Source: Xiphophorus maculatus
Taxonomy: Eukaryota > Chordata > Actinopteri > Cyprinodontiformes > Poeciliidae
Reading direction: 5' to 3'
Assembly (NCBI RefSeq): GCF_002775205.1
Contig: NC_036447.1
Location: 26,704,501-26,768,500 of the forward strand
DNA: 64,000 nucleotides
The position numbers and the translations under genes are program-made. Within the stretch, counting starts at the first letter, position 1. Each line of letters opens with the position of its first letter. Of the stretch, positions 15,139 through 64,000 are shown one piece after another. The notes under the pieces are model-generated. The model ran no database searches and had not been told where the DNA came from. It worked only from the letters and a program-made list of their open reading frames with translations.

Positions 15139-15270
15139 GGTACCACGGAGTACCTTAGCGAGGTACCACGGAGTACCTTAGCGAGGTACCACGGAGTACC
15201 TTAGCGAGGTACCACGGAGTACCTTAGCGAGGTACCACGGAGTACCTTAGCGAGGTACCACGGAGTACCT
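15139..15270. repeat. 23-bp minisatellite, about 5.7 units
   Basis: Near-identical 23-bp units, each with GGTAC, a 6-base spacer and GTACC, then TTAGCGA. The GGTAC/GTACC arms are an inverted repeat, so each unit can form a 5-bp hairpin. The units look perfect, suggesting recent expansion. Confidence 0.95.
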
Positions 15271-15688: not shown

Positions 15689-16030
15689 GTAAGATGCTAA
15701 AGGTTTCTCGTCTCCGCTCATGTTTATGTTCTTCTAAAAAAAGATGATGTATGACTTATTGTTCTCAGTTTTGAAAGAGGTATTACTTTCTATCATCAGA
15801 GAAACACAAGTACAACTAAACACTGATACTCCTGTGGCCTGTCACAACAAGTGGTTGAGGCAGGAGAGACTTTTTATTTTTTATTAAAGCAAAGTTATTA
15901 TTGATAAATTTAAGTTTTCTACAATGGAAAATATTAAGCATAACACAAAGTATTGGACTTTTAGCAACCGTGTTTTCTCCTTTCTCTTAAATTTTGTGGT
16001 AAATATCAACGGACTGAGAGCACAAATCTG

Positions 16031-16106
16031 CTTTTAATGATTAAACCTGGCTTTTAATGATTAAACCTGGCTTTTAATGATTAAACCTGGCTTTTAATGA
16101 TTAAAC
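16031..16106. repeat. 20-bp tandem repeat, about 3.8 units, HNF1-like dyads
   Basis: The unit is CTTTTAATGATTAAACCTGG. Each contains TTTAATGATTAAA, a perfect dyad about a central G that resembles the HNF1 consensus GTTAATNATTAAC and contains two ATTA homeodomain cores. The last unit is cut by the hairpin that follows. Confidence 0.95.
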
Positions 16107-18717: not shown

Positions 18718-21700
18718 ATGGCGACCACTAGGACAGGACTCTTTCTTTTCCTTGTACTTCGTATCTGCAGTGCTAGAGCTGATAAATGCTCCATCCTTCC
18801 TCCAAAGAGTGAGTCATTTAACTCGATATTTGACGAATATCTGAAATGATTCTTTTTCCGTTAATTAAATGCCCACATTCTTGTACATAGATCTCACTTG
18901 CTACAATGACTACAACGATTCTATGAGCTGTGTGTGGGACAGTTCTCATGTCCGCCATCTTACAGACGATGTGTGCACAATACATGCAGAAAATCATATT
19001 GCCAAGTAAGAGCAACAGCAGTCTTTTTCCCCCGCCACATGAAATGCTTTTAAGTAACGCTTTAGAAAAATAATTAACAAAGGTTTTTCTCTTTTAAGCA
19101 GGCCCTACAAGGCTTTCTGTGAGCTAAAGTCCAGTGATGCCTCAAACCCAGCTTTAAAAAGCTGCTCAATGAAATTCTCGAAGCCCTACATTGTGAGTAT
19201 ACAACATTGTTCTTTGGAGAAGCGGGTTCAAGTTGGCAGTTTCTGCATCTGAAAAAGCTTTATATCTTCAATATATCTCAAATAAAGCAAACGTCCTGAC
19301 TAACCCTCAGTTCTTTTCTACCGTTTCATGTTTGGTCTCAACTTCATTTTGTCAGGGATCAGCCGTTCAGTTTTACAAAAGCATAGAGGTGCCACTCAGG
19401 CTGACCAAAAACAGACGTTTCATGAAGACTGAATTAGTCTGAAGTGACATATCTTCACTGTTACTGCACCTTGTGTTGTTAAAAAGTGAGACCCAGATGA
19501 TTTAACAGATGTATTTCTATTTTTTCCCCCTATTTTTATCCATTGCTTGAACCCTTTACTCAAATGATAATGTCTGTATTTGACGAGAAAGAAAAAGGGA
19601 AAATGTTTCGTTTTCAAAATTTCAGCATTTTTCCATGATGTAGGGATGGCCAACAAAACTTATTGCTTCTGAAAATGTTTAAAGTGGTCATGAATGCGTT
19701 CTGAAAGTAAAAATAATTTTATTTATTCATTTCCAGTTCATGACATTTCATAACCTATCCCTTACTGTGAGATGCATGCCGTCTGAACATTGTGAAGCCA
19801 TTTACCAAATGCCAGCGCATAACGGTGAGTATAAACTAAGCACACTAAAACAAATAACCTAAAAAAGTGCTGGTTAGTTGTATATTTGGCTATTTTTTGT
19901 GGGGGTCAGGGGGGGGCAATTTTCAGTTGCAGGTTGAAAATCTAAAGTGACAATCATAAAAGTATAAAGTATCTGCTCACAGGAGTGCGGTTAATCCTTT
20001 TCAGAAGCCGTTTCTTCAATCGTAACCTGCTGATCGCTGGTGTGTTTTTAACACACACCAGCTGAAATCACAGCTTTGTCTCGGTCTGGTTAAAGTTGCT
20101 GCTGCCACAAGCATAACAAGTTGGGTTCTTTTTATCAAGTCAGAGCTTCAAGAGGACACATCTGTAGGTGTAACAGTAGCTAAACTGATAACCATTAACT
20201 TAAAAAAAAATACAGCTGTTCTCAAGAAGTCTCTGTTATAAATCACCAAAATTTTACAGTCAATCATTTCCATGTCTATTGGAACAAAAGGAAAAAATAT
20301 ATATATAGGTGTCCCGCATAAAAAACACAAACCACATAGTTTGCAACTAAGTAACACAAAATGACAAAAAATAAATCCAGGCACTATTCTGTAAGACATT
20401 TCATTGTAGACATTTTGTACAGAGGAACTGTTGGAGCCACCATCCTTAGGTAGCCACCGATTTCTTTTTCTAATAGCCATGTAGTAAAGAAATTAAGAAA
20501 CTCTCATAATTTAAAAACCCAATAAGACGATTTGGCCTTTTTGGTTGTAATGTGACAAATCTGAAAAAGTTCAATGAGGAGTAAAAGGATTTTTGCCAGG
20601 AACCGTGTGTTTTATCTTTGTGCATTATCTGACAGCTAACAGCTGAATGTTGGATTTTGCAGTAAAGTTGAACCCACCAGGACAACCTAATGTAAACCAG
20701 ACCATTGTGACCTGGACCTCTCAAGTTGAAGAACACTCGAAAATTACCACGTTCGACTCTCAGCTACAGTGGAAGCAAAAGGATAAGTCGTGGACTGTAA
20801 GTAAATATTTTAATATATTATATTAAAGGCTCCCACGTAGTTCACCCAAACAGTCACGCGGTTGCAGACCGTTTGTATTCGGACAAACTCTTCCTCAAAA
20901 GTATCTATGTCTGTTATGGATACAAAAACCGGACAGTGAAGCGAATAATCAGCATTGCTGTCTGGACGCATCTCCACACGAAACACGGCAATAAACCTCT
21001 GACCAACAATACAACACGTCGCTCAGAGCTCTGTGGACCCCAGCCTGGTGTCGGACGCCTCTCTGCGGACAACAGGGCTTCATTTTACTGATAAGAAAGA
21101 TGCACATCTTTGTGATGCGTCTACGGCAACAGCTGCGCCTCCATTACAAATGTGCGCAAAACATTGTCGATGTTCCACTAATGTCGAAAAAACACAACTT
21201 CACGCTTGCCGTGTTTCCATTGCGTGAGAAACGCAATTAAAATCAGACGTGACTCTGTTCACGGGATAATTCATAAAAAAGTTTTTAAAAAAACGACCGC
21301 GCCATGATCCTCAAACTACTTCATATTTCTTCCTCATGGTTTGCTCCAGGATCATGTTACCCCTGCGATGCGAAAAAAACCCCAAAACATTTCCATTGCC
21401 GTTTTGCAAAATAAACCAACGTTTGTACGGCTGAAAAACTTTCTCTTCCTACTACCAAAACTTTTTATAAAATAACAGATTTTTTTTTCTAAATTAGTGT
21501 GTTTGCATGAAGTGAATTAATTTTCGAAATGCCAAATTGCTCAATCATATGGTCAACGTAAGCGCGTCTAATGAAAAACGATTTGGCCACTTCAGATGAA
21601 GTTCGCTGGGTCTTAACGGTAGACTGTTCAAATGAGAGACCGGAAAACTACCAGCCTGCTGACCGTGTGTTCGCTGACCGTGTGTTCGCTGACCGTGTGT

Positions 21701-24490
21701 TCGCTGACCGTGTGTTCGCTGACCGTGTGTTTTTTTCTTGTCAGGATCCAAACATTCTGAGTAAAATCGTCCAGTGTTCAAGGAACTGTAAGGCTCATCT
21801 GGATCCCAGTTTGTTCACACGAGATGAGACTTACGAAGCTCGTGCTCGCGTGCTGTTCCAGGAGCCATATTTATCGGGAACCTGGAGTGACTGGGGCCCC
21901 ATGAGGTCATGGGTGTCACAAGTGGGAACATCAAAACTGACCCCAGGTAAAATGTTAGCAAACTTGAACAAAGGTTTTGTTGAACCCATTTTGATGATGA
22001 CAATAATAATGGAAAACAGGAAGGTTGAAGATCAACTTTCTCAAACTGAACATAAAAACGGCGCATCAATCCCAAACCCAATGCACTTTTCTTTACAGAA
22101 CCTCTACAGCAGACTTTGTAAGCATGTCTCTCAACTAACGCGACCTTCTGTGTTTTTCAGAGCCGGATGTGGCCGTTTCCACCAGGGGCGTTTTGACCCT
22201 GGCAGGGTTGGGTCTTTTGCTCGCCGGCGTAGGCCTTTGTATGCGCAAAAAACAACTGTGAGAAACTAAGAGTGTTTTCCAAAAACAGTTTTGTCAGATT
22301 TGCGATGTGTTATGTTAAGGGTTTGACCCCCATTTGGGCGTCAGCCATCTTTGGCTTCGGTTTATGATGGAGTTTTTAATTGTTTCAGGATCTACGTAGT
22401 GGAAAGCTTTAAAGGCGGACGAATACCGGACCCTGGGAAATCTGAAATCTTCCAGGTAATCGAGTTGATTTCTCGTAATTTCTGCTGTTTCTGCTGTTTA
22501 TTTAGTGGAATGCACTTAAAACAATATTTAATTCATGAAAAATCTTGCAAAGCAATGTTTTAAATTGTCACATTTTTATGCTAACCAGCCTTATGTTTTC
22601 GGCACAGGACTGGTTTTCTCTGAACTCGAAAGGTCAAGAAGTTATTCCTGCTTCAATGCCCGAAAAATCTGGAGTCCAAGTGAGTTTTTAGGTTTTTTTC
22701 TGGTTGTTGATCTCAATACTTTCGAGTAATTGCTGTTAAAAAGGTTCCTGAAAAGATTATATATTTGTGACACAATACTGAAATGGGAAAGCTTACAAAG
22801 TGTTTAACATTCAAGACATCAGTGAAGGAAAAGGAGCAGGAAAATGAAAAAAACAAACATCTGAGATATTACATATCCTATTTATTTTCACATAAACGTC
22901 CTAAAAAGTCTTTTTAAAGAGTTTTACAACAAAACGTTTCAAACAGAGAGTGGAGATGGTACGATAGGAAGACAGAGTGATTGTACAGCAGTGATGACTA
23001 AAAGTTTACTACATAATTTTGTCAAGTTTTACTGCATAACAGAGGTGGTTGTACCGTACAAGTAAATCTCAACAATTTATTATTGAAATATTCTTTTTTG
23101 AGTATTTCAAGAAGTGACGGTGGGTTATGTTCCAGGTGCTGTTTTAAGCAAACTTTCCCATTAAATAAAAGTGATTTCAGCCCACAGTCCTCCTTGCTCT
23201 TTATCTGCCCATATTAATGAAGAGTGGAGTGGAAGGAAAAAAGTTGTAAAAAAAATAAAATTAAAATAAAATCCACCAGATTTACTCTCACAAGTGGAGC
23301 ATTATGGCTCTTGCCTCTAGACCTGCAGAAAGAGTGAAAAGGTAAAACCACAGCAACATCATGTGTAGTGTGAGGTCCAAGTCAATACAGGACGTATTTA
23401 GTGGCAACCGTGCTCCGACGTAGCGCTTGGTGACATTTAAACTCGTATAAAACAGCTGCCTTCTTTGGTCCCATCCACTGAATTATCCCCCCATCTTCAT
23501 TTGTTTTTTCCGCAGACGTGGCTAAGCTCCCACTTCACCGGGGAATGCGTTCAGTCTTTCTTGAGCTCAGTGGATATTGTCTCCTACGAAGTAACCTCCA
23601 CTGTGGACGCCATGAAGTTCTGCAGACCAGAAGCAAAAGCGATGCCAGAAGGCAACAGCTACGACTCCAGCTGCTCCAGCTTCTCCAACCCCAGCTACTC
23701 CGAGCTCTGCTCTTCTGACTGCGTTCCCGCCAAGAAGCTGCAGCCCTGCGCGCCCGACGCCCCTTACAAGCCGGCCGGCGGCCGAGGCGAAGAACGGGAC
23801 GCCGAACGGGACAGCGAAGCCGAGGCGAAAAAAGAACTGGAAATGGTCAAGTTGCTTTTTATGGGCGATGATAAACAGAAGGCAGTGATCATTTCAGACT
23901 ACGAGAAGGTAGAAAAGCAGCAGCTGCAGCAGCAGGCCGAGAGGCTCAGGCTCCACAGTGTAGATTCGGGGATGTGCAGCTGTGAAGAAGTCAGTCAGGA
24001 GAGCATGGAAGGAGACAGCATCAATACGGCCGACGGACACGACGAAGGGACGAAGGAAGGAAAACAGGAAGACGAGAAAGGGGAGGGAGGGAACGCGACA
24101 AAACTAGATTTCCAGATGTTTGGCAGCAGTGGGAACGTTTTGGGCAAAAACTCTATCCAGATTTGTTTAGATTACAAGCAAATCCCGAGGCTCCGACCTG
24201 AAAGCCCCGCGCCTCCGTGCCAGGATTCAGGCGTTAGCATGATAGCGGAGGAGAACGAGGAACAGGAAGGCGGTGCAGAGGACGACGACAAACCCTCCGA
24301 AACAACCTGCTTCCTTTTCCCACCTCATCCTCCCAGGGCCCTGCCACAGCACCCTTTAAGCACCACTCTGAGTTCGTTTTTACCGCCTCTCCACGGTAAC
24401 GACATCCTGAAGCAGCTTGCTCTGTCAGGTAGCATGCTGAGGCAGCCCTGCAGCGACGGCTACATGCCGGCGAAGCGGAGAGAGAGCTGA
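18718..24490 (+). CDS. il2rb: Interleukin-2 receptor beta-like, copy 1
   Basis: Exons: 18718-18808, 18891-19005, 19102-19192, 19737-19824, 20663-20796, 21745-21946, 22161-22257, 22389-22455, 23516-24490. Phases join without error to give 619 residues. Class I cytokine receptor chain on the lymphocyte surface; in mammals it binds IL-2 and IL-15 with the common gamma chain and signals through JAK1 and STAT5. Visible in order: signal peptide (TTRTGLFLFLVLRICSARA), first fibronectin-III domain with paired Cys and the CVW motif (LTCYNDYNDSMSCVW), second domain, WSDWG in place of WSXWS, a transmembrane helix in exon 7 (GVLTLAGLGLLLAGVGLCM), basic stop-transfer, Box1-like IPDPGK, then a 325-residue acidic tail. 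An optional 72-bp exon lies at 22608-22679. Start choice: AAAAATGG at 18718 opens the signal peptide; ATG 18634 is in frame upstream. Identity rests on domain order, tail alignment (TWLSS against human KWLSS) and synteny. Confidence 0.9.
20036..20062. repeat. Intronic hairpin in il2rb copy 1 intron 4
   Basis: GCTGGTGTG at the left pairs with CACACCAGC at the right around a T/A-rich loop. Found in the 838-bp intron between exons 4 and 5; no function is suggested. Confidence 0.6.
21117..21430. mobile_element. MITE family C remnant in il2rb copy 1 intron 5
   Basis: Shares TCCATTACAAATGTGCG-, CACTAATGTCGAAAAAACA- and GCAATTAAAATC-like pieces with 49978-50130 and the TTTCCATT theme with the full copy at 47364-47775. 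It is diverged, and no clean ends are seen. Confidence 0.55.
21658..21730 (+). repeat. 15-bp minisatellite, five units, next to exon 6 acceptor
   Basis: The unit is GCTGACCGTGTGTTC, ending in the T run that forms the exon 6 polypyrimidine tract (acceptor CAG ends 21744). Reading in the frame of exon 6 it encodes ADRVF five times with no stop, open from 21571. It is normally intronic. Confidence 0.95.
22608..22679 (+). CDS. il2rb: Candidate extra 72-bp exon of il2rb copy 1
   Basis: Flanked by CGGCACAG and GTGAGT, 72 bases, phase 0 on both sides and open. It would insert DWFSLNSKGQEV and then IPASMPEKSGVQ between the Box1 exon and the long tail exon. The position equals the human stretch FFSQLSSEHGGDVQ before KWLSS. 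No counterpart was found in the tandem copy. It may be constitutive, alternative or a cryptic exon. Confidence 0.5.
23516..24490 (+). CDS. il2rb: Last exon of il2rb copy 1, cytoplasmic tail
   Basis: This 975-bp exon encodes nearly the whole cytoplasmic tail, beginning TWLSSHF. Blocks shared with copy 2 are CSSFSNPSYSELC, VIISDYEK, HSVDSGM then EEVSQESM, LDYKQIP, DSGV and FPPHPP-like. Tyrosines in SYSEL, SDYEK and LDYKQ contexts are candidate phosphorylation sites. In the repeat, copy 1 reads SCEEVS where copy 2 reads SYEEVS, so one candidate phosphotyrosine is a Cys. The tail is acidic with an EEKGEGG-type low-complexity stretch. Confidence 0.9.
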   Translation, partial: TWLSSHFTGECVQSFLSSVDIVSYEVTSTVDAMKFCRPEAKAMPEGNSYDSSCSSFSNPSYSELCSSDCVPAKKLQPCAPDAPYKPAGGRGEERDAERDSEAEAKKELEMVKLLFMGDDKQKAVIISDYEKVEKQQLQQQAERLRLHSVDSGMCSCEEVSQESMEGDSINTADGHDEGTKEGKQEDEKGEGGNATKLDFQMFGSSGNVLGKNSIQICLDYKQIPRLRPESPAPPCQDSGVSMIAEENEEQEGGAEDDDKPSETTCFLFPPHPPRALPQHPLSTTLSSFLPPLHGNDILKQLALSGSMLRQPCSDGYMPAKRRES

Positions 24491-54400: not shown

Positions 54401-57400
54401 AACAGAAGTATTTTAAAGTCTGTTCTCTAAGCTATATGGAGCCAGGGGAAGAGCTTTAAAACCTTCCACTAGGAAAATATAAGGCTGAACTCTAAATGTT
54501 ACTGAGTTCATAGATAGACTCCAACCGTTTTAGTCGCCACCTTCTGCTCATGAAAACTTTATAGCTTGTTTGAGCAAACATTTCCAAATAAGGTTGGCTC
54601 CCTCAATGTAAATGCTTGAAAGTAGAAATAAAGGAAATGCAGTCAGAGCTTAAAAGCCCCCATGTATTAGAACAATGCAATACTTGGCCTTACCTTGCGG
54701 TTTAATAAATAAATCCATCACATTTTAAATTAGATCATTGAGATGCTTCTGTTGAGTTATCTGAGGATTTATGGGTGTGCAACGGTGCAAAAGCATTAAT
54801 GTCTCTCAAACTTGTTTACATTGTTTCGCGTTAGAACCAAACACCGATCTATTTTATTAATACATGTGGTGATAGAACCATATAAAATACACAATTGTGA
54901 AGTGGATGAAAAATACTATGTGCTTTACGTTTTTTTCTGACTAAAGATAATCTGAATAGTGTGGCGTGTACATGTATTGAGCTACTTTTAATACGATACC
55001 CCTAAATAAGACTCAGTCAGTGGCCCTGGGTTTTATAAGTGTAATTTCATTCAAGTGTAAACACAGCTGCTCTGTAAATGCCTCAGACATTTATCAAAAG
55101 GAACAAATTAGTGAAATTTAAGGGTTGTAAACAATAATCCAAGCTGTTCCGTTTATTAATAGTAAAACAATTCACGATTAATAAACTGTAAAGTGTTTTA
55201 TGATTTGTTTATCAATTTTCAATTACGCAGCCGTCATAACACAACTGCAAACGTGTCAAGATTTAGCTTTCTCCACAGACAAGCTGGACTAGGAGAGTAA
55301 GGAGGACATGGGATCTGGTGGGGGAAAAGATCCAAAAGCTCACTTAGCACAATTTGTTTTACAGAACAAATACAAATAGTTAGACACACAAATCTGCCTT
55401 TCATACACAGTGACAGGAAAAAAAGCTAATGTCAAAGCCAGACAAATTCAATGTTTCATTTAGCAACAAGCACTGTGGAACACATTAAACATGTACAGGT
55501 GTTTTGTTTCAAGTTTTTCAGTTTGGTTTGTTTCCTCTCTCTTTCTGCAGGCGTAGAAGCAGATACAGTATCTAGCCTGTTATTTTGTATTGTTTCTGTC
55601 CTTTCCCTTTAAACCAGGGGTGTCAAACTCCAGTCCTCAAGGGCCGCTGTCCTGCAGTTTTTAGATGTGCCACAGGTACAAAACACTGGCATGAAATGGC
55701 TTAATTACCTCCTTCATGTGTAGATCAGTTCTCCAGAGCCTTGCTAATGACGTAATTATTCTATTCAGGTGTGGTGCAGCAGAGGCACATCTAAAAGTTG
55801 CAGGACTGCGGCCCTCCAGGACTGGAGTTTGACACCTGTGCTTTAAACCTTTCTGCCCACTTTTTTTTTTATTTTCTTTCCCATCTCAATATCTATTACA
55901 TTTGAAATAAACCCAAAGCAATTTCTAATGAAGCTTTATATGAAGTAGACATAGTAAAAGCAGTAATGCGAAAATACTTATGAAAATAAATCTGTTGGAC
56001 TCGGTCACCTGAGAGAAAGTGACTCTCAGTGAACTAAAAGTATCGCTGACAGACCATGAAGAAGAGAGTTTTAACTGCAATTGCTATTGATAGTTATGTT
56101 TCGTATTAGTAGTTTTTATATATATGTTTTTTCGATGTCTGCCCGTGTTCAGAATGTGGCCTGAGGCAGTTCTCCACCCGCATCGTCGGGGGCAGCGACG
56201 CCTCAGAGGGGGAGTGGCCCTGGCAGACCAGCCTGCAGGTGCGAGGGACCCACATTTGCGGAGGAGCGCTGATCTCCAGTCAGTGGGTGGCGTCGGCCGC
56301 CCACTGCTTCTACGACGACAGGTGAGTGCCAACAGCAAACAGACGACCTGAAGCTCTTTGTTGTTGCAAATGTCATGTTTTCACTCCCTGCCTACACTTT
56401 GAAGGACGCTCTTTCATTTCCCTGTTTCCTAAATCAGGATCGTCTCTTTTCTTTTAAACTCCGTCTGCGTTTGGCTCAAGTGATGGATAAGGATAAGGAT
56501 GTAGGAGTTAAAACCGTCTCAGAGTGAGTGAGGGAGTGATGTGAGTGCATTTCTGGTCTTATCTGCACCTGTCTCTCAAAAACAGCTTAACCGGGATGCA
56601 GCTCAAAAGAATTGCGGCAACGTTTTGCAGGGGGATTAACACTTTTTAATTTTCTTGGGGAGGATTAAAAACTTTTTGAGTTGTACTGTTTACGATTGTT
56701 TGATTGATGTAGATCAAAAATCAGCGTTGAAGACAGTGGCACCCCTAAGGGAGATTCGATGGGGCATATGGCCCCCTGCTGAAAATCTTGCTCAATCCAC
56801 TGGACCCGGAATCATGTTCACGTCATAGAAAGGAATATAGTCATGTTCTCCAATCAAGGCATAAATGCAAAGCCTAATAAATTAATAAATAAATTTATAA
56901 AATTAAAAATGTATTAATGCTGCAGTATGCAAGTTTTATATATATATATGTATATATAAATCCTACTTGTTAAAATCATCGTAATATAATCTGTGAAAAA
57001 GTTGAGCTCATCTGCCTTCTCCCAGTGCTTATGTGTATGTCTGTAACTGGCCCTTTATTGAAGGACAATTTTGTTTACAGAGACTTAATATTTCATTTTA
57101 TTTGCCGTTTCTATTGTTTAATGTATTTATTTTGGATATATAAAACGTCTTCCGGTTCCAGTGTTAAATGTTCATTAGAAGTTACAACTACTTATCTTTG
57201 AGAATGTGCTCTTGTATTACTATCCATTATATTATTTGAAAATAGTCTCAAAACAGTAATATTACGTTTTATCGCGATAACGTCTGTGACAATTTATGGT
57301 TCTGGAATATCTGTCACCGTGACGGGCCTTTACCCTCTCGCTCTGATATTCCCGCTGCAGTGTGTACTCCCCCTCGGTGTGGACGGTGTATCTGGGTAAA

Positions 57401-60400
57401 CTGCTGCTGAACCGCAGCAGCTCCATAGAGGAGGTGGCTCGGGTTCAGCAGATCCACCTCCATCAATACTATGACAGCGAGTCCCACGACTACGACCTCG
57501 CCCTGCTGAAGCTGGACCGGCCCGCGTACGCACTGCTGACCGGACACGCTCGGCCCGCCTGCCTGCCGCCGGCCACCCACCAGCTGGAGCCGGGCCTGCT
57601 CTGCTGGGTCACCGGCTGGGGAGCACAACAGGAGGGAGGTGAGCTGGCCAACAGGTCGGAGACCTCGGGGAGAAAGCGGAGCGGCCAAGGAATAGAAACA
57701 AAACCAAAATACTATAGTGTCTGGAAAGATCACGTCACTGAATTCAAGGTGTCAGAGCACGCTTGAGGAAAATGTGAGATAATCTGGAAAAAGATTAAAG
57801 CTGACGTAAAATCGGATAGGGTGACACGACAATGATGTAAAACGTACTGCTAAATTGAATTAAGAAAAGGAGAGACTAATTCTGACATAAAGCCCAGATC
57901 CTTGATTTCACTGAGATGCTACATGGCAGGGTGTCAAATTTAATTTTATTTTGCTTGATCTCAAGATCGAGAATGTTCTCACAGGGCCGTTAGTGGCAGA
58001 ACGTATTAATAAACCCAGCTAAGCTGTTAAAATATGAATAAATAGCCGTCTCTGCATTCGATAAGAACTTAAGATTAAATAATGTTGAACATCTTTCTAA
58101 ATTAGCGCCATAAAATTAGTGATTTTGACAGCAAAAAAGTGAAAATCAAAAATTTTATTGCGCTATTTTGGAAATATTTGCAAGGAATTTTTATGATATT
58201 TTCTTTAATGCAATTATGAGTTTTTGTTACTCGCCACGTCGCTCTCAGACTTTGACTTTACTTCCAGTGAGGCTGAGGAAGACGGGAAGTAGAAATAAGA
58301 AATACTGCCGCCTGCCGACGTCAGGAGTCACAGAGGCTGAAAACTTCTGACGTCAGGAGTCACAGAGGCTGAAAACTTCTGACGTCAGGAGTCACAGAGG
58401 CTGAAAACTTCCGACGTCAGGAGTCACAGAGGCTGAAAACTTCTGTGACTCCTGACGTCACAGAGGCTGAAAACTTCTGTGATATCAGGAGTCACAGAGG
58501 CTGAAAACTTCTGTGACTCCTGACGTCACAAAGGCTAAAAACTTCTGTGACGTCAGGAGTCACAGAGGCTGAAAACTTCTGTGATATCAGGAGTCACAGA
58601 GGCTGAAAACTTCCGTGATATCAGGAGTCACAGAGGCTGAAAACTTCCGACGTCAGGGGTCACATAGGCTGAAAACTTCTGTGACGTCAGGAGTCACAGA
58701 GGCTGAAAACTTCTGTGACGTCAGGAGTCACAGAGGCTGAAAACTTCTGACGTCAGGAGTCACAGAGGCTGAAAACTTCCGACGTCAGGAGTCACGGAGG
58801 CTGAAAACTTCTGTGACTCCTGACGTCACAGAGGCTGAAAACTTCTGATGTCAGGAGTCACAGAGGCTGAAAACGTCAGTGACGTCAGGAGTCACAGAGG
58901 CTGAAAACTTCCGATGTCAGGAGTCACAGAGGCTGAAAACTTCTGTGACTCCTGACGTCACAGAGGCTGAAAACTTCTGTGATATCAGGAGTCACATAGG
59001 CTGAAAACTTCTGACGTCAGGAGTCTCAGAGGCTGAAGACTTCCGACGTCAGGAGTCACAGAGGCTGAAAACTTCTGTGACGTCAGGAGTCACAGAGGCT
59101 GAAAACTTCCGACGTCAGGAGTCACAGAGGCTGAAAACTTCTGACGTCAGGAGTCACAGAGGCTGAAGACTTCTGACGTCAGGGGTCACATAGGCTGAAA
59201 ACTTCTGTGACGTCAGGAGTCACAGAGGCTGAAAACTTCTGTGACGTCAGGAGTCACAGAGGCTGAAGACTTCTGACGTCAGGAGTCACAGAGGCTGAAA
59301 ACTTCTGTGACGTCAGGAGTCACAGAAGCTGAAGACTTCTGACGTCAGGAGTCACAGAGGCTGAAAACTTCCGACGTCAGGAGTCACAGAGGCTGAAAAC
59401 TTCTGTGACTCCTGACGTCACAGAGGCTGAAAACTTCTGATGTCAGGAGTCACAGAGGCTGAAAACGTCAGTGACGTCAGGAGTCACAGAGGCTGAAAAC
59501 GTCCGACGTCAGGAGTCACAGAGGCTGAAAACTTCTGTGACTCCTGACGTCACAGAGGCTGAAAACTTCTGTGATATCAGGAGTCACATAGGCTGAAAAC
59601 GTCTGACGTCAGGAGTCTCAGAGGCTGAAGACTTCCGACGTCAGGAGTCACAGAGGCTGAAAACTTCTGTGACGTCAGGAGTCACAGAGGCTGAAAACTT
59701 CCGACGTCAGGAGTCACAGAGGCTGTGACTCCTGCCTCTGTGACGTCAGGAGTCACAGAGGCTGAAAACGTCCGACGTCAGGAGTCACAGAGGCTGAAAA
59801 CTTCTGTGACGTCAGGAGTCACAGAGGCTGAAAACTTCTGTGACGTCAGGAGTCACAGAGGCTGAAGACTTCTGACGTCAGGAGTCACAGAGGCTGAAAA
59901 CTTCTGTGACTCCTGACGTCACAGAGGCTGAAAACTTCTGTGACGTCAGGAGTCACAGAGGCTGAAAACTTCTGTGACGTCAGGAGTCACAGAGGCTGAA
60001 AACTTCTGTGACGTCAGGAGTCACAGAGGCTGAAAACTTCTGTGATATCAGGAGTCACAGAGGCTGAAAACGTCTGACGTCAGGAGTCACAGAGGCTGAA
60101 GACTTCCGACGTCAGGAGTCAGAGGCTGAAAACCTCTGATGTCAGGAGTCACAGAGGCTGAAAACTTCCGATGTCAGGAGTCACAGAGGCTGAAAACTTC
60201 TGTGACGTCAGGAGTCACAGACGCTGAAAACTTCCGACGTCAGGAGTCACAGAGGCTGTGACTCCTGCCTCTGTGACGTCAGGAGTCACAGAGGCTGAAA
60301 ACGTCCGACGTCAGGAGTCACAGAGGCTGAAAACTTCTGACGTCAGGAGTCACAGAGGCTGAAGACTTCTGACGTCAGGGGTCACATAGGCTGAAAACTT

Positions 60401-62775
60401 CTGTGACGTCAGGAGTCACAGAGGCTGAAAACTTCTGTGACGTCAGGAGTCACAGAGGCTGAAGACTTCTGACGTCAGGAGTCACAGAAGCTGAAAACTT
60501 CTGACGTCAGGAGTCACAGAGGCTGAAAACTTCCGACGTCAGGAGTCACAGAGGCTGAAAACTTCTGTGACTCCTGACGTCACAGAGGCTGAAAACTTCT
60601 GATGTCAGGAGTCACAGAGGCTGAAAACGTCAGTGACGTCAGGAGTCACAGAGGCTGAAAACTTCCGACGTCAGGAGTCACAGAGGCTGAAAACTTCTGA
60701 GACTCCTGACGTCACAGAGGCTGAAAACTTCTGTGATATCAGGAGTCACATAGGCTGAAAACTTCCGACGTCAGGAGTCTCAGAGGCTGAAGACTTCCGA
60801 CGTCAGGAGTCACAGAGGCTGAAAACTTCTGTGACGTCAGGAGTCACAGAGGCTGAAAACTTCCGACGTCAGGAGTCACAGAGGCTGAAGACTTCTGACG
60901 TCAGGAGTCACAGAGGCTGAAGACTTCTGACGTCAGGGGTCACATAGGCTGAAAACTTCTGTGACGTCAGGAGTCACAGAGGCTGAAAACTTCTGTGACG
61001 TCAGGAGTCACAGAGGCTGAAGACTTCTGACGTCAGGAGTCACAGAGGCTGAAAACTTCTGACGTCAGGAGTCACAGAGGCTGAAAATTTCTGTGACTCC
61101 TGACGTCACAGAGGCTGAAAACTTCTGTGACGTCAGGAGTCACAGAGGCTGAAAACTTCTGTGACGTCAGGAGTCACAGAGGCTGAAAACTTCTGTGACG
61201 TCAGGAGTCACAGAGGCTGAAAACTTCTGTGATATCAGGAGTCACAGAGGCTGAAAACGTCTGACGTCAGGAGTCACAGAGGCTGAAGACTTCCGACGTC
61301 AGGAGTCAGAGGCTGAAAACCTCTGATGTCAGGAGTCACAGAGGCTGAAAACTTCCGATGTCAGGAGTCACAGAGGCTGAAAACTTCTGTGACGTCAGGA
61401 GTCACAGACGCTGAAAACTTCCGACGTCAGGAGTCACAGAGGCTGTGACTCCTGCCTCTGTGACGTCAGGAGTCACAGAGGCTGAAAACTTCTGACGTCA
61501 GGAGTCACAGAGGCTGAAGACTTCTGACGTCAGGGGTCACATAGGCTGAAAACTTCTGTGACGTCAGGAGTCACAGAGGCTGAAAACTTCTGTGACGTCA
61601 GGAGTCACAGAGGCTGAAGACTTCTGACGTCAGGAGTCACAGAAGCTGAAAACTTCTGACGTCAGGAGTCACAGAGGCTGAAAACTTCCGACGTCAGGAG
61701 TCACAGAGGCTGAAAACTTCTGTGACTCCTGACGTCACAGAGGCTGAAAACTTCTGATGTCAGGAGTCACAGAGGCTGAAAACGTCAGTGACGTCAGGAG
61801 TCACAGAGGCTGAAAACTTCCGACGTCAGGAGTCACAGAGGCTGAAAACTTCTGTGACTCCTGACGTCACAGAGGCTGAAAACTTCTGTGATATCAGGAG
61901 TCACATAGGCTGAAAACTTCCGACGTCAGGAGTCTCAGAGGCTGAAGACTTCCGACGTCAGGAGTCACAGAGGCTGAAAACTTCTGTGACGTCAGGAGTC
62001 ACAGAGGCTGAAAACTTCCGACGTCAGGAGTCACAGAGGCTGAAGACTTCTGACGTCAGGAGTCACAGAGGCTGAAGACTTCTGACGTCAGGGGTCACAT
62101 AGGCTGAAAACTTCTGTGACGTCAGGAGTCACAGAGGCTGAAAACTTCTGTGACGTCAGGAGTCACAGAGGCTGAAGACTTCTGACGTCAGGAGTCACAG
62201 AGGCTGAAAACTTCTGACGTCAGGAGTCACAGAGGCTGAAAATTTCTGTGACTCCTGACGTCACAGAGGCTGAAAACTTCTGATGTCAGGAGTCACAGAG
62301 GCTGAAAACTTCTGACGTCAGGAGTCACAGAGGCTGAAAACTTCTGTGACGTCAGGAGTCACAGAGGCTGAAAACTTCTGTGACGTCAGGAGTCACAGAG
62401 GCTGAAAACTTCTGACGTCAGGAGTCACAGAGGCTGAAAACTTCTGTGACTCCTGACGTCACAGAGGCTGAAAACTTCTGATGTCAGGAGTCACATAGGC
62501 TGAAAACTTCTGACGTCAGGAGTCACAGAGGCTGAAGGGAGCTAGCAGTGACTTTAACCCAATGTCTTTCATGCTTCTTGTGAAATAGAGGAAGTGGTAA
62601 CAGAGTGATCCTGATGTCTGACCTCTGACCCCCTGCAGGCAGAACCAACAATGTGTTGCAGAAAGTGGACGTTCGATTGGTCAGCGAGGAAGCCTGCGTT
62701 CGCTCTTACGGCTACCTAGTCACTCCCAGAATGCTTTGTGCTGGTTATCGTAGTGGAGGGAAAGACGCCTGTCAG
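42182..62775 (+). CDS. tmprss6: Transmembrane serine protease 6 (matriptase-2), 3' end beyond window
   Basis: Exons: 42182-42256 (candidate), 46166-46298, 47072-47214, 47875-47942, 48179-48366, 48458-48499, 49402-49606, 49751-49887, 50267-50379, 50488-50597, 51711-51853, 51937-52035, 53370-53483, 53710-53826, 56153-56321, 57361-57638, 62639-62775. All phases agree; 757 residues so far against 811 in human. Type II membrane protease; in mammals it acts on hepatocytes, limits BMP signalling through hemojuvelin and lowers hepcidin. Order: short cytoplasmic N-terminus, membrane helix, SEA, two CUB, three LDLRa, trypsin-like domain with activation site R/IVGG (R572), catalytic His613 (SAAHC) and Asp664 (SHDYDLALL). 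The exon with GDSGGP and catalytic Ser is absent from the window. Distinctive family matches: GCSR then [45 protein letters not shown]. LDLRa exons are symmetrical phase 1-1. Confidence 0.95.
43719..43842 (+). mobile_element. SINE/LINE 3' end with GGAT tail
   Basis: ACAGACTGGCGACCTGTCCA, GGTGACCCCGCCTCTCGCCC and GATAGGCACCAGCACC, ending AAAATGGATGGATGG. This tail is one of the commonest fish retroposon ends. It lies in tmprss6 intron 1. Confidence 0.7.
44045..44164 (-). mobile_element. tRNA-derived SINE head
   Basis: On the minus strand: GGTGGCGTAGTGGTTAGCGC (A box) and GTGGGTTCGACTTCCGGACC (B box), about 60 bases apart as in a tRNA gene. Same family as 27683-27790. It is not a complete cloverleaf. 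Confidence 0.65.
44935..45165 (+). pseudogene. piggyBac-type transposase C-terminal fragment
   Basis: Translation contains [35 protein letters not shown] and [20 protein letters not shown], the end of the catalytic region of fish piggyBac-like transposases. The following Cys-rich zinc-binding tail is missing: the sequence passes directly into a LINE 3' end. Broken relic in tmprss6 intron 1. Confidence 0.7.
45185..45445 (+). mobile_element. LINE 3' end with GTCTAA-type tail
   Basis: CTGTTCTCCCTGCTGCCCTC and GGAAAGAGGTTCTGCAGCAT are the end of a CR1/L2-like ORF. Then CAACGAAATTTCGTTCT and a tail of AAGTCGAAGTCTAAGTC repeats. Confidence 0.65.
46166..46298 (+). CDS. tmprss6: tmprss6 exon 2: membrane anchor
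   Basis: Encodes a basic cytosolic stretch (KTTRTCR) and one hydrophobic helix ([20 protein letters not shown]), then G as in human WYFLG. Positive charge before the helix fits a type II topology, catalytic domain outside. The acceptor could be at CAG 46165 or AAG 46162, differing by one codon. Confidence 0.85.
47072..48499 (+). CDS. tmprss6: tmprss6 exons 3-6: SEA-type stem
   Basis: Exons 47072-47214, 47875-47942, 48179-48366 and 48458-48499. They align with human YSGSLRVLNRHFSQDL (fish [14 protein letters not shown]), the ITSTRLGTYYNSSSVYSFG piece (fish [17 protein letters not shown]), and a small exon ending SSFG where human has STLG. NYT is a possible glycosylation site. The third intron contains a family C MITE. 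Confidence 0.85.
47364..47775. mobile_element. MITE family C, full copy
   Basis: TAGCTGCATTTCCATTA at the left and GTGATGGAAACGCAGCTA at the right are terminal inverted repeats, 412 bp apart. Inside, ATCGAAACGAGTTTTTCGAT is another dyad. It sits in tmprss6 intron 3. Confidence 0.8.
49402..49887 (+). CDS. tmprss6: tmprss6 exons 7-8: first CUB domain
   Basis: Exons 49402-49606 and 49751-49887. CYRYQK opens it; [39 protein letters not shown] and [17 protein letters not shown] align closely to human CUB1. Human ECRDRLAMYD is matched almost exactly. Confidence 0.95.
49978..50130. mobile_element. MITE family C fragment
   Basis: Has TCTGTTTCCATTACAAACG, CGCTAATGTCGAAAAAACA and ATCGCATCACATGA, shared with 21117-21430 and in part with 47364-47775. 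It lies in tmprss6 intron 8. Confidence 0.55.
50267..51853 (+). CDS. tmprss6: tmprss6 exons 9-11: second CUB domain
   Basis: Exons 50267-50379, 50488-50597 and 51711-51853. Motifs: [52 protein letters not shown] (human SQISLTGPGVRVHYGLYN). NCT is a possible glycosylation site. The donor at 51854 is GTAAGT. Confidence 0.95.
51428..51468. repeat. (GT)n microsatellite
   Basis: Uninterrupted GT dinucleotides, about 20 copies, in tmprss6 intron 10. Confidence 0.95.
51937..53826 (+). CDS. tmprss6: tmprss6 exons 12-14: three LDL-receptor class A modules
   Basis: One module per exon: 51937-52035 (CPGQFLC to [11 protein letters not shown]), 53370-53483 ([10 protein letters not shown] to [11 protein letters not shown]), 53710-53826 ([29 protein letters not shown]). 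Each ends in the Asp/Glu-rich calcium-binding signature. All three are phase 1-1, so any one could be skipped without frameshift. Confidence 0.95.
52415..52790. mobile_element. MITE family A, copy 4 (partial)
   Basis: GGGTGTTTTCCCACATGATA start, GTTCGATTGGGGATCAAAGT, and GTTACCCAGAATGCCCTGCA near its end. The right half seen in copy 1 is missing. It lies in tmprss6 intron 12. Confidence 0.7.
52790..53110. repeat. Degenerate AT-rich tandem repeat (AAATATTTAG motif)
   Basis: Repeated AAATATTTAGYTTG, TTGCTAAYTAA and TTTGAAGCTAA pieces with loose spacing of about 30-45 bases. It looks like an old minisatellite, starting where MITE A copy 4 stops. Confidence 0.7.
54266..54455 (-). pseudogene. LINE fragment, minus strand, same family as 39825
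   Basis: The reverse complement translates to [20 protein letters not shown], then KDLLP, matching the LINE at 39825. Only this internal piece is present. It is in the 2.3-kb tmprss6 intron 14. Confidence 0.75.
55615..55840. mobile_element. hAT-type MITE with 8-bp target duplication
   Basis: A 226-bp element from CAGGGGTGTCAAACTCCAGT to ACTGGAGTTTGACACCTGTG, flanked on both sides by CTTTAAAC (55607-55614 and 55841-55848). Eight-base duplications and CAGGGG ends are diagnostic of hAT elements. It is in tmprss6 intron 14. Confidence 0.95.
56153..62775 (+). CDS. tmprss6: tmprss6 exons 15-17: serine protease domain (Ser exon missing)
   Basis: Exon 15 (56153-56321) holds ECG, the stem cysteine kept linked after activation, the cleavage site STR/IVGG and the His motif SAAHC. 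Exon 16 (57361-57638) holds the Asp motif DYDLALL and CWVTGWG. Exon 17 (62639-62775) holds QKVDV, RMLCAGY and KDACQ, ending in phase 0 exactly before the expected GDSGGP. The intron between exons 16 and 17 is exactly 5,000 bp, about 84 percent of it minisatellite. Confidence 0.95.
56929..57060. mobile_element. MITE family B fragment
   Basis: ATGCTGCAGTATGCAAGTTTTATA terminal piece (compare 1197), a TATA-rich expansion, then CTCATCTGCCTTCTCCCAGT as in the copy at 36270. It is in tmprss6 intron 15. Confidence 0.45.
58315..62537. repeat. 4.2-kb minisatellite with CRE palindromes in tmprss6 intron 16
   Basis: Around 130 units of about 30-34 bp. The typical unit is TTCTGTGACGTCAGGAGTCA followed by CAGAGGCTGAAAAC. 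Variants: TTCYGACGTC without TGTG, GATATC or GATGTC for GACGTC, GAAGAC for GAAAAC, CATAGG for CAGAGG. Many units contain TGACGTCA, a full CREB/ATF palindrome. About 13 units carry the inner core inverted (TGTGACTCCTGACGTCACA). Blocks recur at a 1,155-bp period, for example 60361 and 61516, and 60919 and 62074. No reading frame is open through it. Confidence 0.97.
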
Positions 62776-64000
62776 GTATGGGCATATAAACATAACACTA
62801 AGTGTTTGCTTACCAATCTGCATTGATTTCTTTCTATTAGCAAAGAAAAAACTGCATGTCAGACTACAGGCTGTGAACCACAGAACCCCTCTGTTTTTCT
62901 GATCAAAGGAACTTTTTTTCCTTTCTGTACTTTTTGTTGTTTTGACTAAGTTTTAGTAACATTGGGTGAACAGAAACACATCATGCAGAAATTAGAAACT
63001 TGTCCACTGCCAATTGAATAAATGAAAACCCTTGATTTAAAACAATGTTCTATATAGATTGTTCATATAGATTGCACATTTAAACACCTTTTACAGATAT
63101 TTCCATGTACCCACTTCCCAAAAAGAAAATGGAAATTTGCTCCATGTCTTGCTTTTACAGTTGCTTTCTAAATTACTTACACTTCTTTACCAATTGTACA
63201 GTTTCATTGTTTCCAAAATCTGTTTGAGATAAATAAATAAATGTATTTTTGCTAAATGACAGAAAACTTAGAAAGAACATTTCGTAGAATTTCTTTAGTA
63301 ACTTTGCTCAAATTCAAACTTTCACATACATTCAGTGTCAGTCAGTATCTATATTTTAAAATGTGTGTTTTGGGTCAAATCTTCTAGGTTTTCTTCCTTC
63401 TTCTCACAACAGTTTGCTGGAGTTTGGGCTCATTCCTCCTGAAAGAACTGGTGGAGCTATTTGTAGGCCGCCAATCTCACACACGCCTTTTCAGAGATTC
63501 CAACAACTTCTCCAAACTTTTGAATTCGAGAAAAGTCACAAAAAAAAAAAAAAAAAATTCTAAACAATATTTCCGCCAAGTTTTCTGGCATTTGCCAAAT
63601 AGAAGCAATTTTAGTAATCCTAACTAAGCTAAAACACAAAAAAGTCTGGTCTGATTTCACTTCAGACACTAAGGGAAAAAAAATGTGTGTTCTTACTCAG
63701 TTTATGTTAACATCTGGTTTCAACCATACCTCAAAAACATAAAGATTATTCTAGGAAGTCTTGACTGAATTAACCTTTCTGACTTCTATTTGCAAAACCT
63801 TTTGAAAATTATGTCATGTTCTTAATTTATTATTATATAGTTATTTGTGTCATTAATAACTATAAAAATTAAAGCTTTTGTTAGTAACTTGACAAAATGT
63901 GACAAGGTTCAAGGTGTAGAAATACTTTAGTAAGGTACAACTATATAAAATACATTATTTCAGTTACGGTAATCTGTCACAAGATACAGGCTGACATGAA
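62776..64000 (+). other. tmprss6 intron 17, incomplete
   Basis: Donor CAG/GTATGG. No GDSGGP-encoding exon occurs before the end of the window. It contains poly-A at about 63540 and a DNA transposon relic; the rest is AT-rich. Confidence 0.8.
63380..63500. mobile_element. Tc1/mariner-like transposon relic
   Basis: CAGTTTGCTGGAGTTTGGGC, TCATTCCTCCTGAAAGAACT and TTGTAGGCCGCCAATCTCAC resemble, from memory, an internal stretch of Tc1-like elements in fish. Short and degraded, ends not defined. Confidence 0.4.

Follow-up and report, generated by a model that had tools for sequence, protein, structure and literature searches.

Inversion of the spacer between inverted repeats by template switching has been described in yeast genes, where the arms are longer than 9 bp (PMC8604942), and in rRNA and microRNA hairpins (PMC8794818). 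Tandem repeats housed in mobile elements have also been reported. The foldback transposon Tetris contains internal tandem repeats that seeded satellite DNA in Drosophila virilis (PMC4079207), and BrickBuilt is a minisatellite inside a MITE of Porphyromonas gingivalis (PMC4596501). Both tandem repeats within mobile elements (PMC4079207, PMC4596501) and loop inversions (PMC6824564) are already known.

The minisatellite described here lies in a 64,000-nucleotide stretch of Xiphophorus maculatus DNA (contig NC_036447.1, positions 26,704,501 to 26,768,500), hereafter the window. Like the yeast, rRNA and microRNA cases as summarized in their reports, it has a short spacer in both directions between inverted, often perfect arms; those, however, are single-copy sites compared between strains or species, whereas the fish spacers sit in the units of a tandem array and their variants are mostly one-sided (PMC8604942, PMC8794818). 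Small inversions in chloroplast DNA, as outlined in their report, likewise leave the loop of a stem-loop in two directions, with loops of 4 to 24 bp compared with 7 in the fish array, but they changed state five to seven times among 20 plastomes, while the fish types are nuclear, repeated and look old and inherited (PMC6824564). Tetris resembles the fish family in being non-autonomous mobile DNA with tandem repeats that also form longer arrays, although its repeats, of about 220 bp, lie inside the TIRs, whereas the fish unit of 32 or 34 bp lies between two TIR elements; the Tetris abstract does not mention mirror-image units (PMC4079207). According to its abstract, BrickBuilt has in common with the fish family a short tandem unit, a constant leader and tail and a small dispersed mobile element, but it is bacterial, with a 23-bp unit, and mirror-image units go unmentioned there (PMC4596501). 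Our literature search found no description of a minisatellite in which unit types that mirror each other go back to the two edges of the carrier element.

Units of the window array

The array occupies positions 58317 to 62536 of the window (forward strand, as are all features below) and was delimited by TRF (period 32, 127.7 copies, or period 66), segmentation and a stem-loop parse. Cutting after the linker gave 125 segments, of 32 bp (n = 61), 34 bp (n = 57) or other lengths (n = 7), that is, head-to-tail units in the range of roughly 10 to 100 bp expected of a minisatellite. The core is a 7-nt loop, GTCAGGA in forward (F) units or TCCTGAC in inverted (I) units, held between 8-bp inverted arms, TCTGTGAC and GTCACAGA, so that the spacer is present in both directions between inverted arms, an arrangement shared with sites of inverted-repeat spacer inversion. 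The linker, CTGAAAA, is bounded by the core's own stems, and the unit therefore reads stem-loop-stem-loop; in the dispersed family to which the array belongs, the unit is two hairpins end to end, with stem GTCACAGA(GG), linker loop CTGAAAA, stem TCTGTGAC and core loop. As single-stranded DNA, the 34-bp unit has a predicted folding energy of -7.0 kcal/mol with the F loop and -6.6 with the I loop.

An inverted core was found in 14 of the 125 segments, 13 times as the exact sequence TGTGACTCCTGACGTCACA and once as TGAGACTCCTGACGTCACA. The first-pass annotation, made from the letters of this stretch, had described such exact reverse-complement cores, together with inverted arms that bound the core, a linker of constant direction and a third, compound form that joins both orientations. 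All of these were recovered: the 11 example positions that it gave are among the 14 (60695, 61089 and 62244 were absent from its list), the arms are the 8-bp pair above, the linker runs in the same direction in 125 of 125 parsed linkers (the remaining four linker calls of the parse are three compound forms and one in flanking DNA), and the compound form is present at three sites. Its statement that most units read TGTGACGTCAGGAGTCACA proved too broad, as this exact 19-mer occurs only 33 times in the array, the shorter GTCAGGAGTC 99 times, and 32-bp units, which have a broken left arm, roughly match the 34-bp ones in number.

Most of the I units in the window are copies of one another. We segmented the array and compared 99 bp on each side of every I unit (198 bases). 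Group 1 comprises the units at 58809 to 58842, 59401 to 59434, 60563 to 60596 and 61718 to 61751, with flanks that differ by at most 7 edits, and group 2 those at 58941 to 58974, 59533 to 59566, 60695 to 60728 (its left arm, TCTGAGAC, has one change) and 61850 to 61883, with at most 3 edits, while group 3 is the pair at 59902 to 59935 and 61089 to 61122, 7 edits apart. The unit at 62244 to 62277 is near groups 3 and 1 (9 and 10 edits, respectively). Three others stand apart, at 58441 to 58474 (flanks unlike the other groups), 58509 to 58542 (with a changed linker, CTAAAAA, in the stem-loop parse) and 62442 to 62475 (at least 30 edits from all others). Since 10 of the 14 fall in groups of four, four and two with near-identical flanks, most of them must be products of duplication. 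Duplicated I units differ by 0 to 7 edits in the 198 flanking bases, and the closest match between an I unit and an F unit of the window leaves 7 edits in about 200. Exact repeats of at least 150 bp are found throughout the array at offsets of, for example, 1155, 1162, 1187 and 1196, and repeat comparison revealed a higher-order block at 60307 to 61127 that is repeated at 61462 to 62282 (offset 1155) with a single mismatch, at 60700. Descent of all the inverted units from one event by unit duplication had been named in the first-pass annotation as a finding that would overturn its idea of in-place inversion. Within the window this largely holds, in that descent by duplication accounts for the 10 grouped units; the 14 may have one origin or more, and one or a few old inversions may lie behind them.

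The compound form was located by segmentation, folding and a genome search at 59720 to 59745, 60253 to 60278 and 61440 to 61465. It reads CAGGAGTCACAG-AGG-CTGTGACTCCTG, a fold-back, and its three copies have left flanks only 0 to 3 edits of 100 apart and right flanks 10 to 12 apart. The whole-genome search found no exact copy beyond the three in the window. The compound form looks like the outcome of one fold-back (template-switch) event that was later copied, separate from the origin of the I units.

Open frames with trypsin-domain exons (Pfam PF00089) flank the array upstream (57347 to 57766, E = 9.3e-15) and downstream (62629 to 62826, E = 2.1e-8), which places it in an intron. LDL-receptor class A exons were found upstream, at 53.3 and 53.7 kb of the window, and the trypsin-domain gene around the array presumably encodes a TMPRSS6-like membrane protease. 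Other perfect tandem repeats of the window are a 23-bp repeat at 15139 to 15270 (5.7 copies), a 20-bp repeat at 16030 to 16106 (3.8 copies) and a 15-bp repeat, GCTGACCGTGTGTTC, at 21658 to 21731 (4.9 copies). The last of these is within a 235-codon open frame that gave no Pfam match and has a WSDWG motif, which we take to be reminiscent of cytokine receptors.

The dispersed family and its carrier

In the host genome (704 Mb), we counted 107 occurrences of a 31-mer from the inverted unit and 158 of one from the forward unit, with 0 for the reversed controls; with 107 matches of the inverted 31-mer against none for its control, chance is no issue. The repeat unit had 0 exact matches in a viral sequence collection. 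Ten arrays were retrieved and parsed as alternating stems and loops. Those on C4, C7, C12, C15, C16 and C19:24.97 share flanks, an X side and a Y side of about 0.7 kb, and outside X and Y there is a directly repeated element of about 0.8 kb with the ends TACCGTATTTTCCGCAC... and ...GTGCGGAAAATACGGTA. C7, C12 and C15 have both copies of this element (with 95% identity over 812 bp between those of C15). At C16 the beginnings of both are present, and at C4 and C19:24.97 the element was seen on a single side. Between loci, homology ends at the outer ends of the 0.8-kb elements; the shared flanks stop at inverted terminal repeats, as in a transposon-borne tandem repeat. The outer ends of the composite have TA, which may be a target-site duplication or may belong to the terminal repeat. 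Several arrays of the family are carried by a composite mobile unit, in which TIR elements surround X, the array and Y.

Genome-wide, nine near-full matches to X were found (at least 402 of 439 bases; C4, C7, C12, C15, C16, C17 and three on C19) and nine matches to Y of at least 499 bases (C4, C7, C12, C13, C15, C16 and three on C19). The right part of X belongs to a more common repeat, and in other copies of that repeat the sequence beyond this piece is different. Neither X nor Y was present beside the arrays of the window, C9 and C13a in the roughly 1.8 to 3 kb examined per side, and the window array is located outside the composite. At C9 (13.574 to 13.596 Mb), the array is about 22 kb long with about 62% inverted loops (385 of 620 called) and lies between direct repeats of 1.2 kb (98% identity) that have no relation to X, Y or the TIR element.

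The proportion of the two core orientations varies widely between arrays. Nine of the ten arrays (C13b set aside) contain 1402 F and 707 I core loops of seven bases. The C4 array has 50 F loops and no I, and in C12, 284 of 286 parsed cores are F. Both I calls there are the last two, one being a full core, the last before Y, while in the other the Y edge itself was misread as a core. The arrays of C5 (the window), C7, C13a and C16 are mostly F, C19:24.97 is mixed, and C9 and C15 are mostly I. C13b has both orientations of both loops; it is a degenerate array (C13:25.954-25.966 Mb) in which the direction of the whole array appears to change, and Y adjoins its right end. At the right end of C13a (C13:14.080 Mb), a few units have the linker reversed, like a short piece of inverted array. 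Because a single genome contains arrays that are forward-only, mixed or mostly inverted, the family lends itself to studies of hairpin-driven repeat evolution.

Assemblies of long tandem arrays are error-prone. However, both unit types and the array edges recur on several chromosomes, which makes it extremely improbable that the pattern is an assembly artefact.

Loop variants and the frequency of flipping

The first-pass annotation attributed the scattered inverted units to recurrent in-place inversion, by which many units would have flipped independently and would still be flipping. The exactness of the arms and of the mirror and the presence of both unit types at many loci are in line with this proposal. 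Frequent flipping of the loop, though, should carry new loop mutations into both directions. Among the derived loop variants with at least three copies in the nine arrays, 12 of 17 were found in one orientation only and 5 in both; GTCCGGA, one of the 12, is also present in forward orientation in C19:25.69, and with that locus the counts become 11 and 6. Three of the one-sided variants occur in more than 30 distinct contexts each. The occurrence of derived variants in both directions that frequent flipping predicts is therefore limited to the minority just given, which favors the proposal only in part, while most variants speak against it. These counts exclude array C13b, in which both loops vary, loops called "?" or not 7 nt long, variants with fewer than three copies, the consensus and the CpG variant ATCAGGA (87 forward, 164 inverted), the last because a C-to-T change can make it in either orientation; loci C17, C19:25.09, C19:25.69 and C19:24.43 are outside the variant table.

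The state of the arms and the comparison of neighboring sequences bear on the same question. At least 7 of the 8 arm pairs are kept in 353 I units of C9 compared with 1 of 235 F units, so that this array has almost no forward unit with intact arms, which also argues against recurrent inversion. Over the nine arrays, the same threshold is reached by 632 of 707 I units and by 414 of 1402 F units. When opposite-direction units of the same array with at most 10 flank edits were paired, the loops were exact mirrors of each other in 24 of 244 pairs (15 of 18 in the window, 7 of 34 in C19, 1 of 1 in C15 and 1 of 1 in C16), and among the mirrored pairs listed none had fewer than 7 flank edits. No exactly mirrored pair was found among the 176 close pairs of C13a or the 14 of C9, another point against recurrent flipping, and C7 yielded no pair. 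In C13a, 139 of the 176 pairs deviate from the mirror at a single CpG base, a pattern that fits an old flip with later decay. The two closest pairs there (2 and 3 edits) read TCCTGAT/GTCAGGT and TCCTGAT/GTCAGGA, and neither is an exact mirror.

Given these results and the duplication groups in the window, we regard recurrent inversion as very unlikely; the one-sided variants, the duplication groups and the half-core at the Y edge (see below) all weigh against the flipping that had been proposed for the inverted units. The two core orientations are, with high probability, inherited unit types that have not flipped repeatedly.

The main rival explanation for how these types arose assumes one or a few old loop inversions, in which a polymerase template switch between TCTGTGAC and GTCACAGA turned the 7-nt loop in an ancestral array, with duplication and dispersal afterwards. 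It invokes a documented mechanism, since the yeast report, as summarized, describes spacer inversion together with homogenization of the arms (PMC8604942), and some of the loop inversions outlined for rRNA hairpins are 7 to 8 nt long (PMC8794818). The better arms of the I units, the near-mirrored pairs of C13a and the 24 exactly mirrored close pairs are what such events might leave, but the core arms measure 8 bp here, against more than 9 in the yeast events as reported (PMC8604942). The array edges weigh further on this choice.

Array edges and a putative founder hairpin

At the X edge, the sequence ATTTCAGGAGTCA stands beside X in all six loci compared, in the full form ..CACAGAGG in C15 and C19:24.97; the X edge of C19:25.69 has the full form too. 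All six have TTTCAGGAGTCA, and four of them are without the CA of CACAGA. The X edges carry TTCAGGAGTCA, which is the mirror of an inverted half-core, TCTGTGACTCCTGAA, found at the other end of the array in six of the seven Y starts seen. There, C15, C13b and C19:25.69 have an exact TCTGTGACTCCTGAA with CTTAAAC behind it, and the half-core is altered by one change in C7 and in C19:25.09 and by two changes in C12; both edges, X and Y, are exact in C15 and C19:25.69. The Y start is lost in C16, C4 and C19:24.97. The seventh start, C19:24.43, is a Y fragment without half-core, beside other DNA and fused to X in a rearranged Y-X fusion, and as one of the seven it counts against a universal half-core edge. 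In this region (C19:24.428-24.432 Mb), the array adjoins the fusion on its X side, in the order Y fragment, X fragment, array.

Arrays in which inverted units are absent or nearly so, in the portions read, are bordered by the half-core as well. At C19:25.69, where both array ends were read, the X end has 46 cores, all F, and the Y end has 29 F cores followed by TTCTGTGACTCCTGAACTTAAAC; the half-core had been predicted beforehand for an F-only array. This presence beside arrays practically devoid of I units suggests that the two orientations most likely come from the two arms of a founder hairpin. If old inversions were responsible, the Y edge would be the left half of a turned unit. However, the half-core at Y lacks the right arm that a flip would require, it is fixed in six of the seven Y starts, and its mirror exceeds the core loop of the units by one base (T/A). 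On the other side, the final core before Y is inverted in C12 and forward in C13b, with a common odd linker, a difference that old inversions would explain. Weighing these points, we consider one or a few old inversions possible but rather less probable than not.

In the founder model, the starting point would have been one hairpin of 41 nt, TTCAGGAGTCACAGA-GGCTGAAAACT-TCTGTGACTCCTGAA, whose left arm lay at X and whose right arm lay at Y. The predicted fold of this hairpin has -15.6 kcal/mol compared with -4.3 for shuffles. Tandem duplication would have joined the start of the founder's right arm to the left arm, giving forward units. The "inverted" units would have arisen later, without any inversion, when the right arm at the Y edge, in its full length, became joined to the inner left arm, GTCACAGAGG; both unit types would retain TGACGTCA, and unequal exchange would have spread them. 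One possible path is that the Y edge exchanged with a 32-bp unit at CTGA to produce a 30-bp palindrome, which then lost the 7 nt GTCAGGA between two GTCA and so became exactly the I unit. A genome search that allowed up to 3 mismatches found no copy of the palindrome. A search within 4 errors gave 27 matches in 16 loci, but those listed are ordinary 32-bp units, and we rejected the palindrome as a surviving intermediate.

Whether the I units did originate from the Y-edge arm of the founder hairpin is, in our judgment, an evenly balanced question. We rate this origin no higher because of the C19:24.43 edge without half-core and the near-mirrored pairs of C13a, and the better arms of the I units also speak against it, as template switching would give these as well. 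Further points against it are the missing palindrome, the lack of the CA at four of the six X edges, the difference between C12 and C13b at the final core before Y, and the window array, which has neither an X nor a Y edge. Of the five C15 units whose loop is the edge-like TCCTGAA, two have AGAGACTGAAA(A/G)CTTCTGTGACTCCTGAA in common with the Y edge but continue into GTCA; five TCCTGAA units of C9 and two of C7 are without the edge marks of C15. I cores are somewhat commoner towards Y (P = 0.03 in C15, 0.12 in C7, 0.11 in C16 and 0.01 in C19), a weak gradient whose P values treat units as independent and count the Y edge where present.

An unlikely but broader reading is that the minisatellite consists of two hairpins in alternation, whose stems can all serve as sites of strand switching. 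Template switching would then have turned the core loop as the arrays grew, and also the linker loop in C13b and in the right end of C13a, and this nuclear tandem array would evolve by loop inversion in addition to gain and loss of units. With a founder hairpin, by comparison, mirror-image units can look like flips though none need have occurred, as unequal exchange can draw both "orientations" from hairpin arms that sit at either edge of a tandem array. Where loop inversions have been inferred from repeats, the edges of the array should thus be checked as well. One copy of the element, at C19:25.09 (C19:25.094 Mb), is very short, with two full cores, both F, and might be close to an ancestral or collapsed form.
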